From Halobaculum roseum (lineage in GTDB: Archaea > Halobacteriota > Halobacteria > Halobacteriales > Haloferacaceae): a stretch of DNA of 64,000 nucleotides. Made by a program: the position numbers and the translations under genes. A model generated the notes under the pieces. It saw nothing but the letters and a program-made list of their open reading frames with translations. It did not search any database and had not been told where the DNA came from. Shown here in pieces: positions 15,110 to 23,992 of this stretch; position 1 is the first letter of the stretch; the number at the start of each line of letters is the position of its first letter. Location of the stretch: the NCBI RefSeq assembly GCF_019880245.1, contig NZ_CP082286.1:2188521-2252520 (forward strand), read 5' to 3'.

Positions 15110-16110
15110 CGCTCTTGTGTAGCACTTTGTTGATCTCACAGCGTAGCTTTGATAGCGTGTTTGAGCGCTTCTCTTCCCGGTTTCCGCAGTAGTTTTCGTC
15201 GAAGCTGGAACGCTCGGAGATACTGTGTGAGCTTATCTTTTGAGACGCCTCGATGAGGCGAGAGCCACGGTCGCAGCAACGATCCGTGGCTCTCGCAGGT
15301 ATTGACGTGGACGTCTTCATTCGCGTATTCGCCGTCGCCGTGGACGACGTATTCGCGGTCGAATGCGTCGTCCTCGTCGAGTGGGTCGTAGGTACGAAAT
15401 CCGTCAGTGTAGACGGTCAGTGGCTCCTTCTCGCGGTTTGCGAGAAGGAGCCGAACCGTCGATTCATCGGCGGATTTCGCGGGGATCACATACCGATTGC
15501 CGGTGCCGCGATCGACGATCGTGAACACCGGCGGTTTGTCCTGCTCGTACGATCCTCGTCCACGCGTGGACAGGCCACGCGAGCGCGACCGACCGTCGCG
15601 CTCGCGGCCTTTCAGCCCTGCAGAAACGTAGACTTCGTCGATTTCGACGGGACCGACGAGGTCGAGCGAAGGCGCGTCGAGCGCCTTCGTGAAGCGCTCG
15701 ACGCGCTGGTAGATCGTTTTGTACTGAACGTCGATTTCGAGCTGAAGTTGGCGAAGACTCGTGTTAAACCGGAGAAACGCGTAAATCGAGAACAGCCACT
15801 TCCTGAGCGCGACTTTCGAATGGGCGAAAATCGTGCCGGTCTTGTCGTTGAATGTGCGGTCGCAATTCTTACAGAGATAGCGCTGAAAGTGCCCATAGCT
15901 GCCGTTCTTGACCGTTCGGTCAGAACGGCAGCGAGGGCAAGTAACACCGTTACGCCAGCGAACCTGCTGCAACAGGTCCGCTGCGACCGATTCCGACCCA
16001 AACACATCTAGCGGAATCATGCCTAACGGACACCGCTGACGCGGTGTCCTTGCTCTCTTCGATTCTACGGCGACAGCTAAGCGCCATCAACAATCTCCTA
16101 CAGAAGAGCG
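15110..16110 (-). mobile_element. IS1595-family insertion sequence, complete
   Basis: A 1001-bp element with imperfect terminal inverted repeats of about 25 bp. The left end reads CGCTCTTGTGTAG and the complement of the right end CGCTCTTCTGTAG; both continue to TTGTTGAT. It encodes one intact transposase on the minus strand and is flanked by direct repeats of the target. It inserted into the last gene of the trk operon. Because the ends, the gene and the target duplication are intact, it looks recently active. Confidence 0.92.
15136..16020 (-). CDS. IS1595-family transposase
   Basis: A 294-residue transposase. The N-terminal zinc ribbon has CPRCRSD and CKNCDRTF, followed by the DDE-type (ISXO2-like) domain: VEIDEVYVSAG holds the first Asp, VYTDGFRTYDPL the second, with HVNTCESHGSLLRPWL following, the stretch that carries the H/E-region of this family. 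It cuts and pastes the surrounding element. The length is normal for the archaeal group of the family and no frame defects are seen. Confidence 0.92.
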   Translation of the reverse strand: MIPLDVFGSESVAADLLQQVRWRNGVTCPRCRSDRTVKNGSYGHFQRYLCKNCDRTFNDKTGTIFAHSKVALRKWLFSIYAFLRFNTSLRQLQLEIDVQYKTIYQRVERFTKALDAPSLDLVGPVEIDEVYVSAGLKGRERDGRSRSRGLSTRGRGSYEQDKPPVFTIVDRGTGNRYVIPAKSADESTVRLLLANREKEPLTVYTDGFRTYDPLDEDDAFDREYVVHGDGEYANEDVHVNTCESHGSLLRPWLSPHRGVSKDKLTQYLRAFQLRRKLLRKPGREALKHAIKATL

Positions 16111-17410: not shown

Positions 17411-17808
17411 GTGGAAAGTCGACCGATTATTGCTCCAGAGGAGCTATATGGCACTGAGGGGGAGGCCGTGAACCACGCGGTATCCAGTTACTTCGCCAAG
17501 TCGCAACTCCGCCAAGACATCATCATCTTCGAGACACAGGACGGATACAAGAACGATAATGTCGGCAGCAGTGCCGTCGAGATGTTCCGTCAGAAGAACA
17601 CGCCTCCGCGGTTCAGCTTCAGACAGGGGTCACAGGAGACAGTTGGGCACGTCTCTATGTCCGGCGGCTCTATTGTGGCGCGATGGGGACGGACTAGGAT
17701 CTTGACGCTTACTACCGCTATCCAGTTCGGTTTGAGGGTTCCGAAACTGGACGCCCCGACGACGCCGAGGCCTACGAGGGTGCCAGTATCGTTGAGGAGG
17801 ACAACTAA
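17411..17808 (+). pseudogene. Remnant of an unidentified gene
   Basis: Between the binding-protein gene and the FokI-like nuclease gene, several short protein-like pieces occur in different plus frames: EELYGTEGEAVNHAVSSYF and SQLRQDIIIFETQDGYKND early on, and DAYYRYPVRFEGSETG with EAYEGASIVEEDN at 17698-17808. The last piece follows an in-frame TAG at 17695 and its TAA overlaps the end of the nuclease gene by four bases. I read this as one or more decayed genes. The family is unknown; a former partner of the nuclease is possible but unproven. Confidence 0.45.
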
Positions 17809-19445
17809 GCAAATTGTGTTTGAAGGAGTGCATCTGCGTTCTCAACCTCGAATATTTTTGACCCTCGGAAAACCGACAATGGTAGTTTGCGGTCGTCGTC
17901 TGCATACTCCTCTCGCCACAACTCCGCTAATTCTACGAACGCACTCGCCGTCACTAATCGAATGTCCGTCCCAACCTGCATCTCCAGCTGCAAGGCGTTC
18001 TCTTCCGCCTGTTCGGTGAAGTCTGGTGCGATAATTAGGAACCATTCAACGTCGTGTTGGTCATTTTTCGTGTCGATGTAGTTCTTGATCTTGCTCCGAG
18101 CATCACTCCCGAGACGGAATTTCTGGCGGCGACGCTTGTTATCCCAGAGTAACCATTTCCCATCTTGCTCAATTTCTCCGTCTGCAACCACACCCGTCGA
18201 GTGCTGGCCGAGCTGGTTCGTCCCTTCAAGTTTGAACACCTCAGAGAAGATCTCTGTAGTTGCATCTTCAAAGAGCACGTCCAGTTTTTCCTCGGGGTTG
18301 TCCGCGTCGACTTGGTCCTGGAGTTGGGGCGGAACCGACGTTACCGATCCATCTGCGATATCCTTGAACGCATCCAAATAGAGGTCAACTGCGGGCTCTC
18401 CTTCCTCAACGGATTTCTGAGACTGCTCGAAGTACTCGATGATTGCTGACACCATTTCGTCGGTCTTCAGCTTGTGTGCGTCAAGTCCGTATTCGTCGAC
18501 GATATCTTTGAGGTCCTCCTTCGGGACGACTTCTTTTAGCAGTTCGCTGGGGTAGACGCCCGCGGTGACAATGTTCTCTCGGCGGTTCGCGTTCTTCCCG
18601 TAGTTCTTCCCGGTGACATCGAACTTGTCTCGTGCCTCAAGGAGGATTGATCGACGGTCGAAGACATCGAGTGTTTCGAGCATCTGTCGGAAGTTCTCGT
18701 CGGACATCTCGTAGTAGAGCCAGTCTTGGACGATATCGACGTAGTCTTCGGGAATTCCGACGAGCTCGTCGTAATCGTCGTCAGTGACCTCGTACACGAG
18801 TGCTTGCTCTTGGAGCGACCAGAGGCCCTTCTCGATAGTATCGATGGCGTGTTCGGGATTGTCTGATCGGGAAACCTTCGGGAAACGGTCGATAGCTGAG
18901 AGTCGTTGGAAGAAATCCAACCACGTGTAGTAGTCCCGTTTGTTTTCATGAGAGCGGTTGTGGAGCTCAAAGTAGCTGTACACCATGTGGAGTTCAGAAT
19001 CATCAACTTGGTTTTTATAGTCGACAGCGGCCTGCGCAAGGTGGAGAAGTTCGTCGTTCTCGGGGAAAGAGTCGCCGTCGTTAGATTGGATAAGGGTGCG
19101 TTGCCAGTCTTGGACCGCATCTAAAAGAACGTTTTTCGCCATATTGTACTCGGGCTGCTGGATGAGCTGGCGGAGTATCCCGTAGCGAATGATGAGTGCC
19201 TGGTACGGTGAGTTATTTATCGCGCTAAGCCGAGGAGGGGTGAAGTTATTGAGTTCTTGTTTGAGGCGCTCGTGGGCGGCAAGTGCAGGGACGTATTCGT
19301 TGAGATACGCGTCCCGATCACTGAAGCCATCGTGCTTGAAGGATTCAGGATCAAAGTCATCTGTCTTAGTTTTAGTGCTACCTTTGATGAATCGGTCGCG
19401 TTCGTAGCTGTTCCAGTCCCTGTCGATGAGTTCCCGGAGTTCCAT
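17805..19445 (-). CDS. Large putative restriction-type endonuclease with FokI-like cleavage domain
   Basis: A 546-residue protein of lower GC than its surroundings. The first ~400 residues are mostly helical and acidic with no family I know. Around residues 415-500 the pattern ADGE, then WLLWDNK 8 residues later, then GSDARSKIKNYIDTKN and DVEWFLIIAPDF, follows the order of the FokI cleavage domain (PDG, VDTK, dimer-helix region, hydrophobic strand). The Asp of ADGE and the Asp and Lys of WDNK would be the metal-binding PD-(D/E)XK residues. I infer a phage- or DNA-defence nuclease. No methyltransferase adjoins it. A TATA box 26 bases upstream supports the ATG at 19445. Confidence 0.7.
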   Translation of the reverse strand: MELRELIDRDWNSYERDRFIKGSTKTKTDDFDPESFKHDGFSDRDAYLNEYVPALAAHERLKQELNNFTPPRLSAINNSPYQALIIRYGILRQLIQQPEYNMAKNVLLDAVQDWQRTLIQSNDGDSFPENDELLHLAQAAVDYKNQVDDSELHMVYSYFELHNRSHENKRDYYTWLDFFQRLSAIDRFPKVSRSDNPEHAIDTIEKGLWSLQEQALVYEVTDDDYDELVGIPEDYVDIVQDWLYYEMSDENFRQMLETLDVFDRRSILLEARDKFDVTGKNYGKNANRRENIVTAGVYPSELLKEVVPKEDLKDIVDEYGLDAHKLKTDEMVSAIIEYFEQSQKSVEEGEPAVDLYLDAFKDIADGSVTSVPPQLQDQVDADNPEEKLDVLFEDATTEIFSEVFKLEGTNQLGQHSTGVVADGEIEQDGKWLLWDNKRRRQKFRLGSDARSKIKNYIDTKNDQHDVEWFLIIAPDFTEQAEENALQLEMQVGTDIRLVTASAFVELAELWREEYADDDRKLPLSVFRGSKIFEVENADALLQTQFA

Positions 19446-19476: not shown

Positions 19477-19594
19477 TCAAGATAGCTCTCGAAGATGTTA
19501 TTAGAAATACAGTAATTCAACCATTGACGGTTTTTCACACCGCTCTTTCGGTAGATAAATCACTACACAGTCTAACTCTTCGACGAGATTGATT

Positions 19595-20023
19595 ATGGAA
19601 ATATCTGATCGACTTCTTACGTTGTACACCGCTGAAGTGATGCAACAACAGGATCAGTACGTACTGGAGGTTCCGAAAGACGAGATAGCTCTTGGAGAGA
19701 TTGAAGACGGCGAGGTGTACCGTGTTGCAGTACTCACTGATGGGGAGGCCGGAGGCAGCTCTGAACAAGCGGTTCGTCCTCAAAGACACGACAGGCAGCG
19801 TCAGCCTCGACCAGCGGAGTTCGATGGACCGCCCGTAGAAGTCGGCGATGAACGTATGGTGGAGATAGAGTCGACAGGTGAGGAAGGAGATGGTATTGCG
19901 AAGGTGGACCGCGGCTACGTTGTGGTCGTACCGGACGCTTCTGAGGGCGACAAAGTCCGAATTGAGATGGATGCGGTGAGAGAAAATGTCGGATTCGCGG
20001 ATGTCGTTGAATATATCGACTGA
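19595..20023 (+). CDS. TRAM-domain protein (predicted RNA-binding)
   Basis: A 142-residue protein. The N-terminal part reads MEISDRLLTLYTAEVMQQQ and YVLEVPKDEIALGEIEDGEVYRV. The C-terminal TRAM/OB domain (~residues 80-140) has VEVGDERMVEIESTGEEGDG, IAKVDRGYVVVVPDASEGD and a final VGFADVVEYID. Small TRAM proteins act as RNA chaperones in archaea and also occur fused to tRNA-modifying enzymes. The ATG at 19595 was chosen over an upstream TTG because the domain starts there. A linker of His/Arg/Gln-rich sequence joins the two parts. Confidence 0.88.
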   Translation: MEISDRLLTLYTAEVMQQQDQYVLEVPKDEIALGEIEDGEVYRVAVLTDGEAGGSSEQAVRPQRHDRQRQPRPAEFDGPPVEVGDERMVEIESTGEEGDGIAKVDRGYVVVVPDASEGDKVRIEMDAVRENVGFADVVEYID

Positions 20024-20515: not shown

Positions 20516-23500
20516 CTATTCGAGCCGATTCTGCAGCGTCGAAACCGTGTGGAGTTCGGTGAATCCGGATTCGTCGATCCGCCACGCACTCGGCGGCGAG
20601 TTCTCGCTGTACTCCTTCTCGACCCGCGGCGTCCCGTCGGCCGGTCGGTTCAGCGCCGTCAACACCTCGTGGGCCTCGCTCCGCGCGGTGGCGATCCAGA
20701 TCGCCGCTTCCGGATCCGGCGCCGCGAGTTTGTCGTAGTCCGCGGGGGCCGCCCGGTAGATATCGTGGTTCGTGCGTTCCGCCTCCAGCGTCACGACGAT
20801 CTCGCCGTCCGCGTCGAGCCCGACCGCGTCGTACCGATACTCTCCGTTCGGGTGGTCGTAGTAACGACGTGCCTCGACGGCCGCCGACGAGTCATCGTCG
20901 ACGAACGCCTGCTCGATGTACTCCTGCCCCAGCACCACCATCAGCGTGTGGAGGCTGGATTCAGCCACGTCGCCGACGCCGTGGCCATGGGCGTCTCCCT
21001 CGCGGTGTGGCTCGCGCAACAGCACTCGACCCTCCGGCGTGACCGTGTACAGGGTGTGGGGCGTGTCGCCGTCGTGGCGAAGCAGACCCGCGCCGAGCAG
21101 CTCGTCGACGGCGTCGCTGTCGAGCCCACAATCCGCTCGGAGCGTGTCCATCCCGTCGCGACGCAGGTCGTACGCGAGCGGGTCAAGGCGGCGCTGTTGA
21201 GCCGCATACACCGCCTGCAGGAACAGCAGTTGCGCGTGCGTCCAGTCGGCCGCGTTGCGCTCCCCTTCCGACAGCGTGAGTGGGATCGTACACACCGGCA
21301 CACGCTCTGGGTCGAGGTCGGCGCGGTCCCCACAGCAGTCGACGCCACGTCGGATCCCGTCGACGCTCGGCTCGTAGCGAGCGCCGCAGGTGTCACACAC
21401 GATCGCGTGGGCCTCTTCGGTGTAGGTCACCGCCTCGGGCAGCCGGTCGGTCGTCGGCAGCGCCGAGTCGACCGCGCTCCCCGGCCGGTCGGTGCCCGGG
21501 GCAGGACCGTCGGGATCCCCCACCGTGTCCGCCGTTCCCGCGTCCGCGAGGGTGAGTCCGGCGTCATCCCGCGTGCGGGCGACGCACGTCTCGTGTTCGG
21601 CGCGAAACGCGGCCGCCCGCGCGTCGGAGAGCCCGTCGTCGGCCTCCGGGTGCCCCGGCGGCAGCGGAAGCGACTCGACGACGAACGGCTGTGGCTCGGG
21701 GGCGTCGAACGGCGCGGGCAACGTGGTGAGCCACTCGCCGCGGGAGAGCGCTCGGAGGCGGGTGCCGACCGCCTCGGCGCCCATCGCGTCGGTCGCGAGG
21801 CGTTGCTGGAGGCGGGTGTCCAAGGCGACGTTGCCCGTGACGAGCGTCGAGACGTTGTTCATCAGCTCGCTGTACGCCTCCGGGTCCGTCTCCCGGAGCT
21901 GGCCCGGGAACTGCATCGCGAGCGTCACGCTCAGCCCGAACGCTCGCGACTGCGCGAGCAGGTCGCTCAGAACCTCCGACACCGCGAGATCCGCCGCCTC
22001 CTCGAGATAGAGGTTGACCAGCGGGAGGTCGTCCTCGTCCCGGCGGCGGTGGCGCTGCCGAAGGGCACTCCAGAGGTTCGACAGCACGACGAGCGCGAGT
22101 GACTGTTGGCTCTTCGCTCGGACCCCGCCCGTGTCGATGACGACGAGCGCGTCCTCGTCGAGCACGTTTCCGAGCTCGAACGTCGGCGTGTCCGGGTCGT
22201 CGCCGGCGACGTGGTTGAACACGCGGGCGAGGCGATCATCGAGGGGGACCTTCTCGACGCGGTTCGCGACGCCCTGCATGATCCGGGCGAACGCCTGGGG
22301 GTCGTTCTCGGCGACGCCCGCCAGCATCGCCCGGAGGTCGTCGTCGCTCACCAGAGGCGGCTCCCCCTCCCTGCGGAAACGGTGGACGGCCCGCTCCAGG
22401 TCGCGGTGGGCGAACGCGTCGGCGCCGTACTCGGGGTCGAACAGCGCCTTCACGAGATATCGGATCACGTCCGGCGAGCGGACGGCGCTGTCGAACGCCT
22501 CAGCGCCCGTGATCGCCCGGAGCAGTTCGAGGTAGTGGTCGGTGACGTCCTGCACGGCGGTCGTTCGGGGGACGCCCGCCGCCAGATCGTCGCGGATGTC
22601 GAACAGCGACAGCGCCGGCAGCGTCTCGCTGCAGTCGAAGTAGTAGACGTCGTCGAGGTCGCCGTGTGCGGCGTAGTGGGTTCGGAGGAGGGTCGTCGCC
22701 ATCTCGTCGCCCTTCGGGAGGACACAGATGTCCGCCCCGTCGGTCACCGTGTGGTTCTCGGTGATTGCGCGGACGAGGGCCGTGGATTTCCCGGAGCCGG
22801 TCTTCCCGAACCACGCGACGTGCAACGGCTGCAGGGACGGCGGGAGCGCGACCGTCGTGTCCGTCGCGGTGCCGTCTCTGGTTCGTGGCCGCCCGATCGC
22901 GAGGCCGCGGTCGTACCGGGCGAGCGCGTCCGCCGGCGGCGGCGCGAGCCCCGTTCGCTCGGCGGGGAGCGCGCCGAGTGCGCGGCGGGCCGTGTCGGTG
23001 AGCGCGGCGCCGTCGAGGAGGGCGACGTGGGGGACGGTCGTCGAGTCGGCGACGATCCGCGGCGAGCGGTTGCTCGCCAATGGGAGACGGCGAGCCAGCC
23101 GGCGCGTCGCCGGCGGGTCGCGGAGGGTTCGCTCCCGGATGGCCTCGCGAAGCGCGTCTCCCGGGTCGTCGTGGGTGACCGGCCGCAGGTCGTAGAAGTC
23201 GCCCCCGACGGCGGTGAACGACGCCGCCAGATCGCGGGCGCGGCGAGCGGCGTTCGGGCCGGCCGCGAGTACTCGGGCGTTGAGGTCGTAGCAGTTGCGG
23301 GCGGACTTCGCGAGGATCGCGTCGATCCGGGTGCCCGGGACGCTGCCGGTGTCGCCGCGGCGGTGGGCCGACCGGCGTGGAGCGTGGCGGTCCGTCGCCT
23401 CGGGGTCGTGGTCGTCAGTGAGTGGGAGGAGGGCGCCGGCGAGGCGCTGGCCGACGGTGTCGCGCTCGCGGTCGAGGCGCCGGACGCGAGCCTCGGCTTC

Positions 23501-23992
23501 GCCGCTCCAGTCGGGCTTGGGTCGGAGCAGCGCCTGGTAGGCGGTCGGAAAGTCGGCGGCGGCCAGCCCTTCCACGACGGAGGTGAGCGGGAGCGTGGGG
23601 GCGTCCTCGACGCGGGCGGTGTCGTGTTGCTCCGGCGCATCCGAGAGCGCGGGCGGGCGGAGGCGCGTTTGCCAGTCGTCGCGGCGCTCGCCGACGCCGT
23701 GGATTTCCGCGATCGCGTCGGCATCCGTCGGGAGGTCGGCGAGGGGATCGGCGTCGTGGGCGGCGAGCGCGTAGCTGTCGGGGAGCAGCCGACTCGCGAC
23801 GCGGCGGAGCGCGTCGAACCCCGTCGCCTCAGTCCCGAGGTAGTAGTCGATATCGTCGCCGTCGGTGGTGAGGAGGATCTCGATCGTGTAGTCGTCGAGG
23901 GCGCGGTGGAGCTGCTCGAACTGGTCGGTGATCCGCTCGGCCGGCAGCGGGTCCGGGCTCGGCGTGATCTCGAGGTAGACGCGGGGGGCCAT
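20516..23992 (-). CDS. HerA/VirB4-type ATPase with C-terminal zinc, winged-helix and nuclease-like parts
   Basis: A 1158-residue protein. A Walker A loop FGKTGSGKS sits at about residues 395-402 and Walker B with a double Glu (NLYLEEAAD) near 660, followed by LLAQSRAFGLSVTLAMQFP, the sensor region of HerA/VirB4/TraG ATPases. A zinc site (CDTCGARYE and DCCGD) lies near 865. A helical segment then leads to a winged-helix-like part, and RYDAVG, then TLEAERTN near the end, gives a D...ExE pattern as in PD-(D/E)XK folds. Relatives occur on haloarchaeal plasmids and integrated elements and are thought to pump DNA. The nuclease assignment is inference. Confidence 0.8.
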   Translation of the reverse strand: MAPRVYLEITPSPDPLPAERITDQFEQLHRALDDYTIEILLTTDGDDIDYYLGTEATGFDALRRVASRLLPDSYALAAHDADPLADLPTDADAIAEIHGVGERRDDWQTRLRPPALSDAPEQHDTARVEDAPTLPLTSVVEGLAAADFPTAYQALLRPKPDWSGEAEARVRRLDRERDTVGQRLAGALLPLTDDHDPEATDRHAPRRSAHRRGDTGSVPGTRIDAILAKSARNCYDLNARVLAAGPNAARRARDLAASFTAVGGDFYDLRPVTHDDPGDALREAIRERTLRDPPATRRLARRLPLASNRSPRIVADSTTVPHVALLDGAALTDTARRALGALPAERTGLAPPPADALARYDRGLAIGRPRTRDGTATDTTVALPPSLQPLHVAWFGKTGSGKSTALVRAITENHTVTDGADICVLPKGDEMATTLLRTHYAAHGDLDDVYYFDCSETLPALSLFDIRDDLAAGVPRTTAVQDVTDHYLELLRAITGAEAFDSAVRSPDVIRYLVKALFDPEYGADAFAHRDLERAVHRFRREGEPPLVSDDDLRAMLAGVAENDPQAFARIMQGVANRVEKVPLDDRLARVFNHVAGDDPDTPTFELGNVLDEDALVVIDTGGVRAKSQQSLALVVLSNLWSALRQRHRRRDEDDLPLVNLYLEEAADLAVSEVLSDLLAQSRAFGLSVTLAMQFPGQLRETDPEAYSELMNNVSTLVTGNVALDTRLQQRLATDAMGAEAVGTRLRALSRGEWLTTLPAPFDAPEPQPFVVESLPLPPGHPEADDGLSDARAAAFRAEHETCVARTRDDAGLTLADAGTADTVGDPDGPAPGTDRPGSAVDSALPTTDRLPEAVTYTEEAHAIVCDTCGARYEPSVDGIRRGVDCCGDRADLDPERVPVCTIPLTLSEGERNAADWTHAQLLFLQAVYAAQQRRLDPLAYDLRRDGMDTLRADCGLDSDAVDELLGAGLLRHDGDTPHTLYTVTPEGRVLLREPHREGDAHGHGVGDVAESSLHTLMVVLGQEYIEQAFVDDDSSAAVEARRYYDHPNGEYRYDAVGLDADGEIVVTLEAERTNHDIYRAAPADYDKLAAPDPEAAIWIATARSEAHEVLTALNRPADGTPRVEKEYSENSPPSAWRIDESGFTELHTVSTLQNRLE

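Follow-up and report, generated by a model that had tools for sequence, protein, structure and literature searches.

The 64,000-nucleotide stretch of Halobaculum roseum DNA analysed here (“the window”, G000:C1:2188521-2252520) encodes a protein that joins a C-terminal cleavage domain of the FokI type to an N-terminal region of unfamiliar type and has no constant methyltransferase partner. We assign it to a new family, a novel variant among solitary, type IV-like nucleases; none of the papers listed in literature searches on FokI-like, type IIS, solitary or modification-dependent nucleases and haloarchaea described this family. The evidence consists of the fold, the invariant catalytic residues, purifying selection, mobility and the lack of a constant methyltransferase. 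As to function, we see about an even chance that the protein works as a nuclease on its own, leaves self DNA intact by acting on modified, structured or otherwise foreign DNA, and is carried as anti-virus cargo.

A FokI-type cleavage domain and an unfamiliar N-terminal region

The coding sequence is read on the minus strand from an ATG at 19445 to a stop codon at 17805-17807, which is included in its extent, and encodes 546 residues. Start and length are common to the homologues: 21 full-length proteins, the window protein included, align from the first methionine and almost gap-free, in an alignment that is shallow (59-80% identity to the window protein). The L017 row was omitted from A2 and A3, being identical to L003. 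The Halobaculum roseum assembly (3.72 Mb) has a second full-length copy, 74% identical to that in the window. The gene described in the earlier note is thus real, but its extent of 17411-19445 has to be corrected to 17805-19445. The “decayed gene” said to abut the 3' end was not confirmed: one frame is open in 17411-17804, and no frame there gave a match, whether to plasmids or to the homologue loci. An IS1595-family transposase gene lies ~1.8 kb from the 3' end of the nuclease gene.

Table 1. Coordinates of the nuclease gene, its parts and other genes mentioned in the text
Feature	Sequence	Positions	Strand	Basis or remark
FokI-type nuclease CDS	window	17805-19445	-	reading frame; 20 other full-length homologues aligned; dN/dS 0.04-0.10 in homologue pairs
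N-terminal region, residues 1-380; putative recognition or sensor part	window	18306-19445	-	no match to a curated family above the cut-off
Residues 80-244, possible core of winged-helix type (confidence low to middling)	window	18714-19208	-	model m44ac453f98bc; VIA
Cleavage domain, PD-(D/E)XK fold of FokI type, residues 384-546	window	17808-18296	-	pLDDT ~90; VIA Z 16.7
D422, equivalent of FokI D450	window	18180-18182	-	invariant 21/21; mapped through L053 protein
D435-N436-K437, equivalent of FokI D467-T-K469	window	18135-18143	-	invariant 21/21; mapped through L053 protein
IS1595-family transposase	window	15136-16020	-	
TRAM-domain gene	window	19589-20023	+	divergent from nuclease
HerA/VirB4/TraG-like ATPase, 1158 residues	window	20516-23992	-	beyond TRAM gene
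Six-transmembrane ion channel	L003	22151-22990	-	within two genes of nuclease
Six-transmembrane ion channel	L031	11204-12019	+	within two genes of nuclease
Six-transmembrane ion channel	L047	8277-9101	+	within two genes of nuclease
~450-residue protein with FokI-type cleavage domain	L053	640-1977	+	
~450-residue protein with FokI-type cleavage domain	L054	622-1971	+	
~450-residue protein with FokI-type cleavage domain	L055	1069-2433	-	
Large secreted protein	L130	3460-6471	+	Halorubrum CBS-YdjM...DUF7115 interval
Large secreted protein	L138	8694-11534	-	Halorubrum CBS-YdjM...DUF7115 interval

The C-terminal ~165 residues are confidently predicted to adopt a FokI-type PD-(D/E)XK fold. An AlphaFold2 model of the full protein was of poor quality overall (pLDDT 65.6), with high values from residue 384 onward. 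The best Foldseek matches in the PDB were N.BspD6I (E 1.6e-4) and FokI (E 3.5e-4). VIA ranked FokI (2fok_B) at the top, with an rmsd of 2.4 over 160 aligned residues; N.BspD6I reached Z 15.8 over 187 residues, and beyond the FokI/BspD6I group the highest Z was 9.9. The motifs read VAD422GE ... LLWD435NK437 in the window protein, and G423 is as invariant as the catalytic residues listed in Table 1, E424 being replaced by Q in one homologue.

At the level of sequence, the Pfam family PF09254 (FokI_cleav_dom) matched 4 of the 21 members weakly (best E 0.013, below the curated cut-off), and no match to it was found in the window genome (G000) at E 0.001. This failure to reach the cut-off counts against the reading as a stand-alone type IV-like enzyme. 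On the other hand, profile-profile comparison of the cleavage domain with two haloarchaeal FokI-domain proteins (L053 and L054, 445-449 residues) gave a score of 41.2, against 32.7 for the best of 100 column shuffles and 12.6 for the reversed profile, which makes their C-terminal domains homologous to that of the nuclease; their profiles did not match its N-terminal region. Against the Pfam FokI cut-off of 25 bits, one of these bridging proteins scored 30.7 and the other 24.0, and an alignment of one of them to FokI puts D450, D467 and K469 on D422, D435 and K437. The predicted structure thus assigns the C-terminal domain to the FokI cleavage-domain superfamily, with weak but independent evidence from sequence. 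The earlier note had recognised this domain from an ADGE/WDNK pair; the predicted fold, the invariance of the motif residues and the profile comparison all bear it out.

Proteins of ~450 residues with FokI-type cleavage domains, as in L053, L054 and L055, occurred in 3 of 194 genomes, two of them above the Pfam cut-off. L053 and L054 have a common N-terminus that is unrelated to that of the nuclease family.

The nuclease resembles FokI in its cleavage domain, which has the same fold and order, in its catalytic residues, in the C-terminal position of the domain and in the similar size of the N-terminal part. It differs in having no linked methyltransferase, in falling below the Pfam cut-off and in an N-terminus that is not recognisably that of FokI. 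Since N.BspD6I was the top Foldseek match and some copies lie in proviruses, it could be speculated that the protein is a subunit that nicks DNA or depends on a partner, in the manner of N.BspD6I, or a nuclease that processes viruses or mobile elements, and not a defence enzyme. N.BspD6I works with a small subunit, however, whereas the haloarchaeal gene has no conserved small nuclease gene next to it, and most copies are outside virus genes; we regard this explanation as highly unlikely.

Residues 1-380 matched nothing in Pfam, NCBIfam or PADLOC above the cut-off and had no credible PDB match by sequence, and searches of these four collections with the whole protein gave chance-level matches only (0 families at E 1 in PADLOC-DB 2.0.0). 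In PHROGs the one match below 0.001 was phrog_34709, a family without annotation, for 2 of the 21 members (E 9.9e-5). The N-terminus is therefore of an unfamiliar type, as the earlier note had it, with ~380 residues and not 400. Models of this region are poor (pLDDT 61-66, with a mean of 61 for the dedicated model), which counts against the type IV-like reading. The best VIA rows for the dedicated model were mostly winged-helix DNA-binding proteins at Z 6-9, where the tool warns that similarity can be mere common arrangement; the best E was 0.31 with Foldseek and 0.023 in BFVD. The N-terminal core may be a winged helix, so a distant modification-reading winged helix is possible. None of the known modification-reading domains (SRA, EVE/PUA, DpnI-type winged helix) was found in the 21 members with Pfam, which likewise counts against that reading. 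The recognition part of FokI is described as a module of three winged helices with a relationship to DndG and SspB (PMC10853773), so a distant relationship of the N-terminus to that part is plausible.

Patchy spread, mobility and selection

The nuclease gene was found in 23 of 391 genomes of the haloarchaeal class, the window genome included: 18 copies are intact, one is split over two contig ends (G362) and four are broken (G263, G096, G072, and G228). It was present in 6 of 99 closer relatives (window genome included) and in 3 of 294 genomes of the phylum, all of the same family, while none of 10 other genomes of the window genus had it. No relatives outside the haloarchaea appeared in the collections searched (a phylum sample of 294 genomes, with patterns that reach close relatives only). 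GC content is 0.517 for the gene against 0.621 for the window, and 0.44-0.58 across 20 family members. In the tree, the window copy groups with the copy of Humcor1 (support 89/86) and with copies from another family (support 96/90), apart from the second copy of its own genome. The patchy spread, the low GC and the tree indicate that the gene has moved horizontally among haloarchaea.

Humcor1 (L003), which carries one family member, is an induced provirus that was found in a virus stock (PMC7911831). A related provirus, L041, has a 73%-identical nuclease in the same slot between the same flanking gene families. In Halorubrum, L127 has an empty site of 72 bp where L044 has 3.27 kb and L043 has 3.07 kb; both inserts contain the nuclease, with different neighbours, in one case an Mrr gene and in the other a gene without assignment. 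This CBS-YdjM...DUF7115 interval holds the nuclease in two genomes and large secreted proteins, presumably S-layer-like, in others (L130 and L138), and it is therefore a general variable site and not one for defence only.

Selection was estimated for six pairs in each of the two domains, and 9 of the 12 comparisons had usable dS (three were dropped for saturation). The range given in Table 1 applies to both protein parts, with the N-terminal dN/dS equal to or below the C-terminal one. These ratios point to strong purifying selection on both parts and to a function that has been kept. Conservation peaks in the N-terminal region: residues 181-210 are the best conserved 30-residue stretch of the protein, with 20 invariant positions.

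Methyltransferases and short sites in host DNA

Lone restriction-like nucleases pose the question of how the host avoids being killed. We searched 20 carriers (the 18 with intact copies, G362 and G263) genome-wide for the methyltransferase families D12, PF01555, PF02384, and PF00145. In line with the earlier note, which saw no methylase, the window had no match to any of the four. All 20 carriers have some methyltransferase, but none of the four families is common to all: D12 was found in 10, PF01555 in 16, PF02384 in 16 and PF00145 (C5) in 12, in assemblies that include drafts, which may miss methyltransferases. Of the four, G284 has PF01555 only and G382 has D12 and PF00145 only, with zero overlap between them. 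Carriers and non-carriers were alike in D12 (10/20 and 14/30) and PF01555 (16/20 and 25/30), a similarity that counts against the type IV-like reading.

A methyltransferase lies within 10 kb of the nuclease in five of the 20 carriers (G020, G185, G284, G333, and G410), belonging to several different families. This count combines a motif scan with the family searches, and one flank of G362 ends at a contig end. Only in G020 is a methyltransferase adjacent (D12 at 88 bp); this carrier also has a C5 gene at 4.3 kb, seen in the family search only. Homologues that always stood beside a methyltransferase would have contradicted the earlier note, and they do not. No constant methyltransferase partner emerged from the families searched, and we do not place the nuclease among FokI restriction-modification systems. 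Working without a cognate methyltransferase is a type IV trait, which the nuclease has as far as these four families show, although the trait is necessary and insufficient for assignment to type IV.

One alternative is an ordinary type IIS enzyme whose protecting methyltransferase is encoded elsewhere in the genome. The FokI-type domain and the presence of some methyltransferase in every carrier would fit, and unlinked restriction-modification pairs exist (PMC3488263). None of the four families runs through all carriers, however, G284 and G382 share none of them, and the nuclease crosses families and viruses without a methyltransferase; we consider such an arrangement rather improbable.

Protection by a near-universal CTAG methyltransferase was also considered. 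This enzyme, which we take to fall in PF01555, would be missing from the 4 of 20 carriers that lack the family. A CTAG methyltransferase is moreover reported in only 21 of 56 Halorubrum (PMC6471742), and on these two grounds the candidate was rejected. We likewise rejected a requirement for G6mATC of the kind seen in DpnI and HHPV4I, because half of the carriers have D12, although D12 does not prove GATC methylation, and because the Humcor1 host is reported to be dam-methylated (PMC7911831). With Dam-like D12 and C5 enzymes at these frequencies, dependence on their marks in the usual contexts would be self-harmful, which counts against the type IV-like reading.

HHPV4I (HhiV4I) offers a haloarchaeal precedent: it is an m6A-dependent, winged-helix, methyltransferase-free nuclease of Haloarcula hispanica pleomorphic virus 4 (PMC10101028). 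Like the present family it is haloarchaeal and virus-borne; it bears a winged helix, as the present N-terminus may do, and it has been proposed to exclude other viruses (PMC10101028, PMC11037411). Its HNH cutting domain, SRA domain and DpnI-like winged helix, in contrast, were not found in the FokI-type nuclease, and its G6mATC specificity would be unsuited to carriers that bear D12.

All 256 4-mers and all 1,024 5-mers were present in 83.7 kb of host DNA, and a 510 kb sample of carrier DNA contained each of the 4,096 6-mers and every gapped word of 3+3 bases with a gap of 1-10. Contiguous sites of six bases or fewer and 3+3 split sites would therefore need protection, which makes it unlikely that the nuclease cuts at a short unmodified site that the host leaves unprotected. 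This strengthens the argument of the earlier note that a restriction-like nuclease without a methyltransferase needs another way to spare self DNA. As a separate observation, Humcor1 is strongly depleted in TGCA (26 seen, 117 expected) and moderately in CTAG (42 seen, 87 expected).

A rare cutter like PacI, with a long site of at least 7 bases that is absent from host genomes, has a precedent in PacI itself (PMC3488263). Ten of the 16,384 7-mers were indeed missing from the 510 kb, all of them AT-rich or CTAG-like. Viruses of GC-rich hosts would also be without such sites, however, leaving small defence value, and FokI-type enzymes usually read shorter sites; we think this explanation very unlikely.

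Neighbouring genes and a proposed mode of action

Of 90 listed neighbours within two genes of the nuclease, 75 were scanned; left out were those of L042 (the same provirus as L003), L050, L051, and L052 and one short frame of L031. The 75 included two Mrr-type endonucleases, one D12 methyltransferase and three ion channels. Type IV-like Mrr genes adjoin the nuclease in two loci, and in a third (L051) an Mrr gene and a remnant of the ~450-residue FokI-domain type stand beside a nuclease remnant; the Mrr genes speak for the type IV-like reading. At a few homologue loci PADLOC reported helicases, type IIG-like enzymes and type IV-like Mrr proteins, and UvrD-like, PD-(D/E)XK and PLD-SNF2 proteins flank the nuclease of L033. 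The other loci look unremarkable and most neighbours are not defence genes, which counts against the type IV-like reading. No partner gene is conserved across the homologue loci. A fixed operon with YdjM or an ion channel was rejected, as the empty Halorubrum site, which lacks the nuclease, also has YdjM. The six-transmembrane ion channels occur in three different contexts, by chance or as associated cargo.

In the window, a TRAM-domain gene is divergent from the nuclease gene and, like it, low in GC (0.53; GC3 0.50); a TRAM piece was also seen near the broken nuclease copy of L050. The ATPase beyond it gave a weak PADLOC match (mads_8, E 4.4e-11), and its GC of ~0.72 against 0.52 for the nuclease suggests a separate origin.

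Another possibility is a triggered abortive-infection nuclease that would stay inactive while the cell is healthy and whose N-terminus would sense a viral protein, a nucleotide signal or a replication intermediate and release broad DNA cutting. The high conservation of the N-terminus with its invariant residues, its low dN/dS relative to the C-terminal part, the absence of any avoided short target and the cargo-like distribution are consistent with this. However, the gene stands alone, as neither a sensor nor a cyclase or antitoxin is conserved beside it, and its nearest structural matches are restriction or nicking enzymes guided by sequence. We judge this explanation unlikely.

We favour the stand-alone nuclease that distinguishes foreign from self DNA. 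The N-terminal recognition part, probably made of winged-helix modules, would place the cleavage domain on target DNA, and this domain would cut through a predicted metal site formed by D422, D435 and K437, probably once two copies have paired, by analogy with FokI. Because no methyltransferase is fixed, the N-terminus would have to discriminate: it would respond to something absent from host DNA and so spare the cell without a partner methyltransferase. The most likely trigger would be a base modification of incoming DNA, that is, type IV-like behaviour; a DNA structure or another infection signal is less likely. Viruses, plasmids and genomic islands would carry the gene as cargo from one haloarchaeon to another, and there it would exclude competing viruses. 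The earlier note had suggested modification-dependence or a sensing N-terminus in place of a methylase, and this interpretation withstood both the fold prediction and the survey of adjacent methyltransferases. More tentatively, and at somewhat less than even confidence, this may be the first FokI-type, methyltransferase-free enzyme that reads modification or viral DNA structure through a new N-terminal sensor and thereby excludes rival viruses.

Solitary endonucleases are a recognised puzzle (PMC3488263). How self DNA is spared can now be tested on this family, which is conserved, mobile and virus-borne, keeps its catalytic residues intact, has no common methyltransferase and occurs in hosts that lack no short site. 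If triggered, the protein would be a single-protein abortive-infection system in archaea. If it reads modification, it would add a FokI-type member to type IV restriction, with a new sensor domain joined to a cleavage domain that is already widespread in genome engineering.
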